Below, piece by piece: positions 6,818 through 22,153 of a DNA stretch of 22,153 nucleotides. Numbering within the stretch: the first letter of the stretch is position 1; each line of letters starts with the position of its first letter. Source of the stretch: Pseudomonadota bacterium (lineage in GTDB: Bacteria; Bdellovibrionota_C; UBA2361; OMIW01). The translations under genes and the position numbers were made by a program. The stretch spans positions 1 to 22,153 of the forward strand of contig OMIW01000201.1 of NCBI GenBank assembly GCA_900299205.1. The letters are read 5' to 3'. The notes beneath the pieces are model-generated. The model was not told the DNA's origin. It did no database searches and saw only the letters and a list, made by a program, of their open reading frames with translations.

Positions 6818-7501
6818 GTGGCTGATTTTACATTGTCAGTGCAAGAGCGTTCGGATTCGGGGTCACGGGCCTGTCGCGCCCTTCGGCGGCGAGGTGAGGT
6901 GCCGGGAGTAATCTACCACCGGGGGGAGGAGTCGGTTGCGGTGGCCTTGGGCCTTAAGGAGTTTACTTACCTCGCCAAGCAGGCCAAGCCGAGTCAGGTG
7001 TTTACCCTCAAGAGCGAGAGCCCACGAATTAACGGGAGGCCGGCGCTTGTCCGCCAAATAGCAAGAGATTCAGTCAAAGGTGAGGTGCTCCACGTAGATC
7101 TTCAGGCGATGCGTGAAGATGAGGAGGTATCGCTCGCGGTTCCGGTGCGAATCGTCGGGGAGGCCCCAGGGGTGAAGATTGACAAGGGCATCCTGTCGCT
7201 TCTTGTGCACGAAGTGACCGTGTCGTGTCTTCCGAAGAGTATTCCAGCTGAAGTGCTGGTGGATGTTACTCAGCTGGGGCTAGGTCAGAGCATTCACGCC
7301 CGTGATCTCGCCCTTGGGGAAGGCGTAAAGTTGGGTGATGATCCAGAAGAAACCATCGTCACGGTGGTCGCGGCAGGGGCAGCGGAAGCCGCGGCAGAAG
7401 CACCCTCTGCAGCAGCTCCGGCAAAGGGAGCAGCAACCGCAAAGAGTGCGGCAGCCCCTGCGAAGGCAGCTCCTGCTAAATCTGGGAAGGGAGGCAAATA
7501 A
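6818..7501 (+). CDS. rplY: 50S ribosomal protein bL25, long CTC/TL5 form
   Basis: Binds 5S rRNA in the large ribosomal subunit. The 227-aa protein has the N-terminal L25 beta-barrel (about 1-95, with the RGEVPGVIYHRG motif near residues 25-36) and the C-terminal TL5/CTC domain (about 96-185). A low-complexity Ala/Pro/Lys tail (about 186-227) follows. This makes it a general stress protein CTC-type bL25, unlike the short E. coli form. Start is GTG with a GAGGG ribosome-binding site (AGAGGGTAAG) just upstream. It is followed by pth after 39 bases, likely co-transcribed. The basic Ala-rich tail is typical of this group and probably disordered. Identification is secure. Confidence 0.95.
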   Translation: MADFTLSVQERSDSGSRACRALRRRGEVPGVIYHRGEESVAVALGLKEFTYLAKQAKPSQVFTLKSESPRINGRPALVRQIARDSVKGEVLHVDLQAMREDEEVSLAVPVRIVGEAPGVKIDKGILSLLVHEVTVSCLPKSIPAEVLVDVTQLGLGQSIHARDLALGEGVKLGDDPEETIVTVVAAGAAEAAAEAPSAAAPAKGAATAKSAAAPAKAAPAKSGKGGK

Positions 7502-18775: not shown

Positions 18776-19978
18776 ATGAGACGTGATGGCCCGCGTGGAG
18801 CCAAAGTATCACTTGCTGTCGATGTGAGGCTTTTTGCTTATCCGGAGTTGGGAGAGCGAGGGATCGGACATTATGTCGAGCCACATCTTCGTTCAACTTT
18901 CCGGGCTGGTACTCCGATCAATGTGACCTTAATCGTCGATAGAGAGGGGGACGTGCATCCGCTCATTTCCCGACTTTCTGTTGAGTTTGGGTGTCGCGTG
19001 GCGTCGCTGGAGCGGGTGAGAGACGAGGTTTTTGATATTGTGCACATACCTGACCCGATGACGATTCTTCCGGGCTATGATTCACCACTTCGGAGTCGTC
19101 CCCGTTCGGATGTTACGACCACCCTTTTTTACGACCTGATACCGCTTCGGATAGCTGATCAGCACATTGACCGGTGGGATCAGCGCTCTCGGGAGGTTTA
19201 CCTCAACCGACTGGAACAGGTGACCCAAAGCGACTGCCACATTTTTTCAATTTCAGACTGCACTCGTGTCGATCTCATCAGTCTTGCGGGGATTGATCCA
19301 GAGCGGATTACGACTATTCATGCCGGATGTAACTTTCAAGCGGAGTTTTCCGACCGAGGGGTTGACCAGGATAGTATCCGCGATATCTCCAGTCGTCATG
19401 GGATTCGGCTTCCGTTTTTTTTAATCGTCGGAGGAATCGAGAAACATAAAAATTTTCCCCTTGCACTCGAGGCGTTTGTGGCAACGCGGAAGTGCCATGC
19501 GTGCCAGCTCGTAGTAGTCGGCAGCTTCGGCGATCCGTATAAGCAGGCCTATAGGGACCTTTGTCGAGAGCAGGGGATCTCAGATGTGCTATTCACCGGA
19601 TTTCTTGAAAAAGAGGAGCTTCGGGCCCTCTATAACGCTACCACCGCGGTGTTGGTGCCCTCGCTGTACGAGGGGTTCGGGTTTCCCGCACTTGAAGCGA
19701 TGGAACAGGGCAGTCCCGTCATCGCGAGCTCTGCGGCGTCATTACCCGAAGTTGTCGGAGATGCTGGCTTCTTGTTGCCCCCGGATGATCCGATAGCGTG
19801 GAGCTTCACGATGCGACAGCTGTTGGAGCATCCCGATGGTCGAGAAGTTTATCGCCAGAAAGGCATATCCCAGGCTCGGCGATTCTCATGGCAGCGAAAC
19901 GGAGAGTTGGTACGCGAGGTTTGGAATAACCTCCTGAGTGCGAGGCAGGTCCGGCGGTTTCTTCAGGCTCACCCTTAA
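18776..19978 (+). CDS. Glycosyltransferase family 4 (group 1), mannosyltransferase-like
   Basis: A retaining GT-B enzyme of the type that builds O-antigen, capsule or protein-linked glycans on the cytoplasmic side of the inner membrane. The 400-aa product has an N-terminal acceptor half (strand [10 protein letters not shown], 11-20, and GERGIGHYV, 26-34) and a C-terminal donor half. The donor half starts at [13 protein letters not shown] (214-226) and contains the E-x7-E motif EGFGFPALE (Glu299 and Glu307) and the [10 protein letters not shown] loop (322-331). Start is ATG 18776 with GAGGGG six bases upstream. It is the last gene of the cluster; no clear terminator follows, but the palindromic region begins about 50 bases downstream. 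Family assignment is secure; the sugar is not. Confidence 0.9.
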
Positions 19979-20018
19979 GGATAGGGTAATAACATCTCTC
20001 AAGCCTCAAAAATTTGCT

Positions 20019-20056
20019 TTGACATTATGTCCGATAATTAACGATTATCGGACATA
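20019..20056 (+). promoter_or_regulatory. Perfect 13-bp inverted repeat overlapping a promoter-like sequence
   Basis: TATGTCCGATAAT (20026-20038) and ATTATCGGACATA (20044-20056) are exact inverted copies around TAACG. A consensus -35 box TTGACA lies at 20019-20024 and GATTAT at 20043-20048 is a possible -10 (18-base spacing), so a protein on the palindrome would block the promoter. The half-sites also resemble those bound by Tn3/gamma-delta-type serine resolvases. No T-run follows, which argues against a terminator. Confidence 0.6.
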
Positions 20057-20215
20057 GGATCGCTATCCTATGACTAGGAACGTACTACGTACTACATAGT
20101 ACTTTGCATTTCATGAGAGGCTCTCCCGAATATGAGTTGACAAAGTTTGTCGGTGAGTGAGCCAAATTTTGCTCCGAATGCCGAAAAGCTAGTCTCCGGG
20201 ATGTCTAACTAGTTA
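20053..20215. repeat. Cluster of further short palindromes in the pre-pilin gap
   Basis: CATAGGAT-CGCT-ATCCTATG (20053-20072), GTACTA...TAGTAC (20082-20102, containing a GTACTAC tandem), GAGAG-G-CTCTC (20115-20125), GACAAA-G-TTTGTC (20139-20151, overlapping a second TTGACA at 20137-20142) and TAACTAGTTA (20206-20215). The remaining bases to 20443 hold no convincing gene; the stretch is AT-richer than its surroundings. Confidence 0.6.
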
Positions 20216-20443
20216 AATCTACTAATTATTTCACCAAAGTCTGCAACGGGAGTGGTGTGGCATGTTGTGTGCTAATTGGAATCTATTGGTTTGGTGTGAG
20301 GGATTGAATTAATGATCACGAGGCTGGTTTCAACAAGTGCTACCCATGAGGTTCGAAGGAGCGGTGATGGGTGTTAGTCGTCGGGATCATGGAGACCTTG
20401 AACGATTCTAAATATAACGATATTGCAGGTAGTGAGGTGGTAT

Positions 20444-20842
20444 ATGAAAAGGGTGGTTCGGAAAGAGAAGGGTTTTACGTTGATAGAGGTGCTGGTAGTT
20501 ATCGGAATAATAGGGATTTTAGCGGCGATAGCGGTGCCTCAGTTTGCGTCATACCGGAAGAAGGGGTACGACTCGATCGCTCGGAGCGACCTCAAGAATG
20601 CTGCGACGGCTGAAGAGGCCTTGTTTGCCGATGAGGGGCAATATAAAGGGTGCACTAAGCAAGAATGTCAGACCGTCCTCCCCGGCTTCGTCCTGTCGAA
20701 AGAGATGCAAACGAATGGGTCGCTGGTGATGGCAGCTGTTGGAAGCCCTTCGACTAGCTTCACGGGCTCGTCCTCCCACTCAAAGGGGACTGGTGCAGAT
20801 AAGCCCTTTACGTGGGATAGCAGCCAAGGGGGATTGCAATAA
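20444..20842 (+). CDS. Type IV pilin-like protein (prepilin)
   Basis: Structural subunit of a type IV pilus or a pseudopilus, processed and N-methylated by prepilin peptidase at the inner membrane. ATG 20444 is chosen because GAGGTGG lies just upstream; an in-frame TTG at 20423 has no such site. The 132-aa precursor has a basic leader ending in Gly10, followed by Phe11 of FTLIEVLVVIGIIGILAAIA. Glu15 is the conserved Glu5 of the mature pilin. The hydrophobic helix runs to about 30. The globular part (about 35-132) has Cys70 and Cys75, which could pair, and a Ser/Gly-rich C-terminal region ending FTWDSSQGGLQ. It is close in style to short PilA-like pilins of deltaproteobacterial groups. It stands alone, with a terminator behind it and three glycosyltransferases upstream. 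Confidence 0.92.
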   Translation: MKRVVRKEKGFTLIEVLVVIGIIGILAAIAVPQFASYRKKGYDSIARSDLKNAATAEEALFADEGQYKGCTKQECQTVLPGFVLSKEMQTNGSLVMAAVGSPSTSFTGSSSHSKGTGADKPFTWDSSQGGLQ

Positions 20843-21009: not shown

Positions 21010-22153
21010 TCAGGGGGGGCACGTTCCACCTGGTCCCTGCCCGAGGAAGAAGCCTTGCAAAGATACAGCGTAATAGCTGGTAAAGCCGCTGGCCAAGAAC
21101 TCTCCCTCCTGATTTACTCCCTGCAATCGACACTGCACAACGTACGGCTTGTCGTCTTTGCTATCGACTGAAACGAGGTCGTGACACCACACCCCAGCCG
21201 CCGGATTGCTCTGGTTGCACCGACAATTCTTTCGTTGAGCAGCGCTCGCATTTGCGGGCAGAGTGCCGCAGGACGTACCACCGGCGGGCTCTTTCGGACG
21301 GATATCAAAGACCACCGTGATAGGAGTTGGCGCCGCCTTGCTCACTGGTGGAACAACGGAGATGTCTGTTTGGTCGACCGGTGGCGGGGTTCCCGCAAGA
21401 AAGACGGGATTCGTAACCTCCCGAGTTATCCGACTTGCCCCCCCAATCTTTACCCGTCGGAACTCGGCCACCCTGATGCCATTTTTGATAGAGACGATTC
21501 TCTGAAAGACCTCACAGGTGTACTTGCTTTTACCCTGGAAGCTTGGTCGCACCCGCCAAGAGATCCTCATCAATCGCTTGCTACCCTTTACCTTTACCGC
21601 CCGCGCAGTCTGGCCGCAGAAGGTGGGTTTTGACTTAGAGGGGTCGAAACAGGTAGCGGTGAAAGCGTCGGCGTATCCACATCCACATTTTCCTGGACGT
21701 GACTTTAAAGGGTCGGAATCGCACAGATCCCTGCCGCAGGCGAGCCCTCGGTCTTCATCCTCATCTTTATCAAAGGCGTTGTCCGGGCAGGGTGTTGAGG
21801 TTGGGGTCGCTGACGGCCTCGGGGTCGGGGTTTTCGATGGCGTTGCTGTGGGGGTGTTTATCGGGGTTGTCGTAGGAGTTCGCGTTATCGTAGGAGTTCG
21901 CGTTATCGTCGGAGTCGGTGTTATCGTCGGAGTCTCTGTAGCAGTCTGAGTGGGGGTGATGGTAGGCGTTGCGGTCGGCGTTAACGTAGGAGTTGCCGTT
22001 GCCGTCAGGGTTGGAGTGTTCGTTGGCGTTCGCGTCGGAGTTAGTGTTGGCGTTGGTGTGTTTGTCGGCGTAGGTGTGTTTGTCGGCGTAGGTGTCGGAG
22101 TCACCGCACTGAGAATGAACAAGACATCATCAAAGTTTGGACTAAGTGGAAGA
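21010..22153 (-). CDS. Secreted-type Thr-Pro-repeat protein with CGCG motif, N-terminus beyond the window
   Basis: The minus-strand frame is open from the right edge to a TGA at 21010-21012, so the N-terminus is missing; an internal TTG at 22122 is not the likely start because the frame continues upstream as [13 protein letters not shown]. About 110 residues of T-P repeats come first ([11 protein letters not shown] style), probably an extended, possibly glycosylated stalk. A Cys-rich segment follows: Asp/Glu-rich [13 protein letters not shown], then [18 protein letters not shown], the calcium-loop-like motif found in thrombospondin-type-3-like repeats of many secreted bacterial proteins. The remaining about 200 residues alternate beta-like strands with several Cys pairs ([17 protein letters not shown]) and I recognise no domain. 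A CCCCC-TGAA-GGGGG hairpin overlaps the stop codon. Surface or extracellular location is inferred. Confidence 0.8.
21778..22101 (-). repeat. Degenerate 6/18-base repeat array encoding Thr-Pro repeats
   Basis: The DNA is built on a 6-base theme with 18-base higher units. CGTAGGAGTTCGCGTTAT occurs exactly twice in tandem (21871-21906), followed by two diverged copies to 21942. GTGTGTTTGTCGGCGTAG occurs exactly twice (22056-22091). Exact neighbouring copies suggest recent slippage or unequal exchange, so copy number may vary between strains. Confidence 0.85.

Follow-up and report, generated by a model that had tools for sequence, protein, structure and literature searches.

We used sequence searches of the genome, its relatives, plasmids and viral contigs to interpret a perfect palindrome in an uncultured bacterium, which very probably serves a Cre/IntA-like tyrosine recombinase as its core recombination site (att/res type). 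The palindrome lies in contig C201 (here called the window, the whole 22,153-nt stretch of DNA that was analysed) of a 2.45-Mb draft genome that consists of 206 contigs and is 89.75% complete. Computation established the site, a second copy of it, a recombinase gene, and an association across genomes between recombinases of this family and sites of this type. Most likely, the palindrome is thus a further example of an already known kind of recombination site and not a gene switch.

The initial annotation had described a perfect 13-bp palindrome following TTGACA, and this was confirmed: the inverted repeat TATGTCCGATAAT-TAACG-ATTATCGGACATA occupies 20026-20056, with 13-bp arms and a 5-bp spacer, and the span from TGTCC to GGACA is indeed 27 bases. 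The left arm (20026-20038, plus strand) and the right arm (20044-20056, the same 13 letters when read on the minus strand) are the presumed recombinase half-sites. Inside the palindrome, which extends beyond it by one base per side, is the core site ATGTCCGATAA-TTAACGA-TTATCGGACAT (20027-20055, plus strand), of 11-7-11 form with an asymmetric centre; its assignment is based on the exact sequence, the second copy, the match to the IntA att site and an alignment of 15 related sites. The centre TTAACGA (20038-20044, plus strand) is the presumed crossover region, as judged from the layout of the IntA att site and the site alignment. No other inverted repeat in the window combines perfect arms of 10 bp or more with a spacer of up to 20 bp, and about 0.005 repeats with arms of 13 bp or longer would be expected by chance in 22 kb. 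It sits in a 0.45-kb gap between a gene that we read as glycosyltransferase-like (18776-19978) and one that we read as pilin-like (start at 20423 or 20444). A search of the window allowing up to 2 mismatches yielded no second pair of half-sites, and the earlier statement that the window holds no recombinase gene is consistent with its list of open reading frames. The last bases of the right arm also belong to a shorter inverted repeat, CATAGGATCGCTATCCTATG (20053-20072). A minus-strand frame (21010-22152) that encodes a long Thr-Pro repeat extends up to the end of the contig, and this repeat may be the reason why the assembly stops there.

Sites of this kind have been experimentally characterised on the plasmids of Rhizobium etli CFN42, where attA and attD are the sites of the recombinase IntA; the att site reads TCCGATAAGCATTACTTATCGGA, and its core arms are TCCGATAA-N7-TTATCGGA (PMC4928290). 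Positions 20030-20052 of the window read TCCGATAA-TTAACGA-TTATCGGA, so that both 8-bp arms (20030-20037 and 20045-20052) and the length of the centre match attA (PMC4928290). Both systems also have a tyrosine recombinase, the one here being related to plasmid recombinases that are encoded beside the same site. As among the IntA sites, the 7-bp centre is divergent, being TTAACGA in the window, TTAACCG at the second copy on contig C126, and other letters elsewhere. In contrast to the IntA system, the two sites here lie on chromosome-like contigs and at a distance from the recombinase gene, the host belongs to an unrelated uncultured lineage, the letters of the centre differ, and activity is predicted from sequence. 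Location beside the recombinase gene is usual for IntA-type sites but not required, as attD is on a different plasmid from attA.

The search for other copies of the half-site that had been proposed at the outset led to the second copy. It is the only other one found in the genome with up to 3 mismatches, is intergenic (C126, 7071-7099) and has perfect 11-bp arms. Read on the minus strand, its centre is TTAACCG versus TTAACGA in the window, a difference at 2 of 7 bases. The motif GATAA-N7-TTATC occurs genome-wide in these two places only, and the half-sites with one mismatch on contigs C8, C49 and C74 each stand alone, with no partner arm. The C126 copy is located between an hpf-like gene (ribosome-hibernation factor), which is followed by a hairpin and a T-run, and an rpmG-like gene. 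When the two regions were compared, they had little in common beyond the site itself and a stretch of about 43 bp (20078-20120 in the window, plus strand), which includes the inverted repeat GTACTACGTACTACATAGTAC. Its counterpart adjoins the C126 copy (7010-7058, about 45 bp, also with an inverted repeat), and the local alignment score of the pair is 25, the best among four comparisons and matched by 0 of 500 shuffles. The stretch is a possible accessory element.

The sole match to PF00589 (Phage_integrase) in the genome is a 331-aa protein encoded on contig C145 (9011-10006), which is 37-40% identical to four IntA-type plasmid recombinases, the comparison being with recombinases encoded beside the site and not with the IntA sequence itself. 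Its best matches among solved structures are chains of Cre (E 2e-10, residues 43-316), and it has kept the catalytic positions R171, H279-S-L-R282, H305 and Y314, whose roles we presume from what is known of Cre. Its resemblance to Cre of phage P1 thus covers nearly the full length, and both systems have a simple inverted-repeat core, although the arms of loxP are 13 bp and its centre 8 bp long, with letters other than those found here. Assignment of the protein to XerC/XerD was rejected, since it scores 54 bits versus NCBIfam equivalog cut-offs of 330-335. In the phylogenetic tree, the IntA-like recombinases stand apart from the Xer-type proteins of the order, and the C145 protein groups with its class relatives with moderate support (89/91). 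The conserved Xer-type recombinase of the order, present in 19-20 of 27 relatives at 52-78% identity, could not be found in this genome, which is 89.75% complete and in which the IntA-like protein is the only tyrosine recombinase detected. No repeat of 11-7-11 form was found on the C145 contig with the recombinase gene, even with arms shortened to 8 bp and 2 mismatches allowed, whereas the homologous genes of class relatives have an adjoining site. The sites on C201 and C126 would therefore be used in trans.

The same site is widespread on plasmids. A BLAST search with 42 bases returned 213 plasmid records under a lax E-value limit that also admitted weak matches, and 150 of these are typed as conjugative. 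The commonest genera belong to the Alphaproteobacteria, and the matches include Agrobacterium, Rhizobium, Sphingobium and Gluconobacter. An IntA-like reading frame adjoins the site in 10 of 12 inspected plasmids, usually less than 100 bp away, with the frame looking broken or unannotated at two loci (L150 and L178); in the remaining two (L149 and L177), no IntA-like gene is within reach of the site. Several of the inspected sites adjoin repC, DUF1403 and ScpB genes. At L177, a Sulfitobacter plasmid (NZ_CP139710.1), the site is near TniB-like and Mu-transposase-like genes. Among viral sequences, TGTCCGATA-N5..13-TATCGGACA was found in 45 stretches of IMG/VR, and an IntA-like frame is also present in seven of those checked. 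Phage records gave no useful match to the site. Two viral contigs (L102 and L103) are near-identical phage-like stretches in which HNH-like and terminase-like frames are found near the site and the part examined has no IntA-like gene. In AT-rich viral contigs (L112, L115, L132, L141, L143, L145, L105, L138 and L139), TGTCCGATATTTATTATCGGACA or its reverse complement occurs in similar flanks and has a very short centre; it is apparently a different hairpin element, and was set aside.

Relatives from the same class associate the recombinase family with the same form of site. All 5 close homologues of the C145 protein (35-47% identity) are preceded, at a distance of 20-80 bp from the open frame, by an 11-7-11 inverted repeat of the GATAA/TTATC type with ATAA/TTAT inner ends, and the same test applied to 450 kb of unrelated control loci found 0 of them. 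The outer arm letters of these repeats are ACTTCC and others versus ATGTCC here, and ATGTCC is what the plasmid sites have. The same site was not found in relatives, which use other outer letters (0 of 27 genomes of the order when up to 3 mismatches were allowed and 0 of 44 relatives at up to 2). Two class relatives (L161 and L168) combine more distant recombinases with similar repeats whose centre is 6 bp long, TTCGTGATAA-N6-TTATCACGAA and TACGTGATAA-N6-TTATCACGTA. Across the alignment of 15 related sites, the letters are conserved and not the pairing alone.

If the site works like those of IntA and Cre, each 11-13-bp arm would be bound by one recombinase monomer, and two such sites would be brought together in synapsis. 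The catalytic tyrosine would then cut the strands at the borders of the 7-bp centre, followed by exchange and rejoining. The likely enzyme for both copies is the 331-aa C145 protein, which would act from a distance on C201 and C126, and we infer its binding and catalysis and the exact crossover points by analogy with IntA and Cre. Against this reading stand the lack of a site beside the recombinase gene, the differing outer arm letters of the class relatives and the two plasmid sites that have no IntA-like gene within reach; the draft of 206 contigs also shows no product of recombination. Depending on how the copies are oriented to each other, exchange between them would either delete or integrate the intervening DNA or invert it. 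As in the plasmid systems, the role of the site would most likely be the resolution, or the integration and excision, of a replicon or an island.

The initial annotation had offered two readings, an operator and a mobile-element recombination site of the serine class. That the palindrome is the operator of a dimeric repressor overlapping a promoter directed at the pilin gene would fit a perfect intergenic palindrome that precedes a type IV pilin-like gene, and TTGACA-18-GATTAT can indeed be read there, but we consider this very improbable. The proposed -35/-10 pair is weak, as this is one promoter-like match versus a mean of 1.2 in shuffled sequence, and the pilin start is about 370-390 bp off. 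TTGACA (20019-20024, plus strand), claimed as the -35 box, is missing at the C126 copy and at related sites and is probably incidental. The C126 copy, moreover, is in the hpf-like/rpmG-like interval, which is unrelated to pilin, and related sites adjoin recombinases; overall, the operator and promoter alternative gained no positive evidence. The second reading was right about the kind of site but not about the class of enzyme, as tyrosine recombinases adjoin such sites and the arms match the IntA att site. A res-like site of a Tn3/gamma-delta-type resolvase would agree with the 27-bp span, and the half-site letters TGTCCGATAATT resemble those of gamma-delta; the likeness of the Tn3/gamma-delta letters TGTCCGATAAT is nevertheless superficial. 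Res sites of this type are used by serine enzymes and have three subsites and a 2-bp overlap, whereas the intergenic region has one palindrome and not a three-subsite array. The suggested search for a serine recombinase gene gave no PF00239 match in this genome at its 89.75% completeness, although the same search was positive in 10 of 14 control genomes, and the neighbours of the inspected plasmid sites are tyrosine recombinases. The serine reading is therefore extremely improbable. Equally slight is the chance that the palindrome acts as a transcription terminator or other RNA hairpin: the fold is strong (z of -5.7 and -5.1 on the two strands), but a perfect DNA palindrome always folds, the related sites conserve letters and not pairing alone, and no terminator-like site was found in 19960-20460.

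Two variants concern the role of a tyrosine recombinase site and not its nature. In one, the IntA-like enzyme would have taken the place of the Xer-type enzyme and the site that of dif in chromosome-dimer resolution. This is conceivable because the Xer-type protein of the order was not detected in this genome and the IntA-like one is the only one detected; the arms of XerC/XerD-dif and of single-Xer systems (XerH/difH) likewise end in ATAA/TTAT around a short centre, which we take to be a dif-like trait here, and the enzymes belong to the same catalytic family. However, dif is a single copy at the terminus, whereas there are two copies here, neither with a sign change in GC skew within its short flanks. 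The genome is, moreover, 89.75% complete, and its assembly may simply lack the Xer gene. We regard this role as unlikely. In the other variant, the copies would be inverted and flip a segment including the pilin side, as a phase switch. The position between a glycosyltransferase and a pilin-like gene fits such a switch, and asymmetric centres would set a defined orientation, yet the difference between TTAACGA and TTAACCG at 2 of 7 bases would possibly hinder exchange, and such a switch would depend on how C201 and C126 are placed and oriented to each other; we hold it to be quite unlikely. There is likewise a small chance that a plasmid-type IntA/Cre-like recombinase is now the only one of the tyrosine class on the chromosome, acting at two stand-alone sites and replacing Xer/dif or rearranging a region of surface-structure genes (glycosyltransferase/pilin).

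Taken as a core recombination site, the palindrome belongs to a conserved and mostly unannotated group, found in the 213 plasmid records (weak matches included) and in some viral contigs, that is tied to one recombinase family. The present analysis extends both the palindrome and the recombinase family to the genome of an uncultured lineage. This family offers simple core sites to compare with Cre/lox. Since its arms are identical to the ones characterised for IntA, elements that bear this site could in principle recombine with such genomes.
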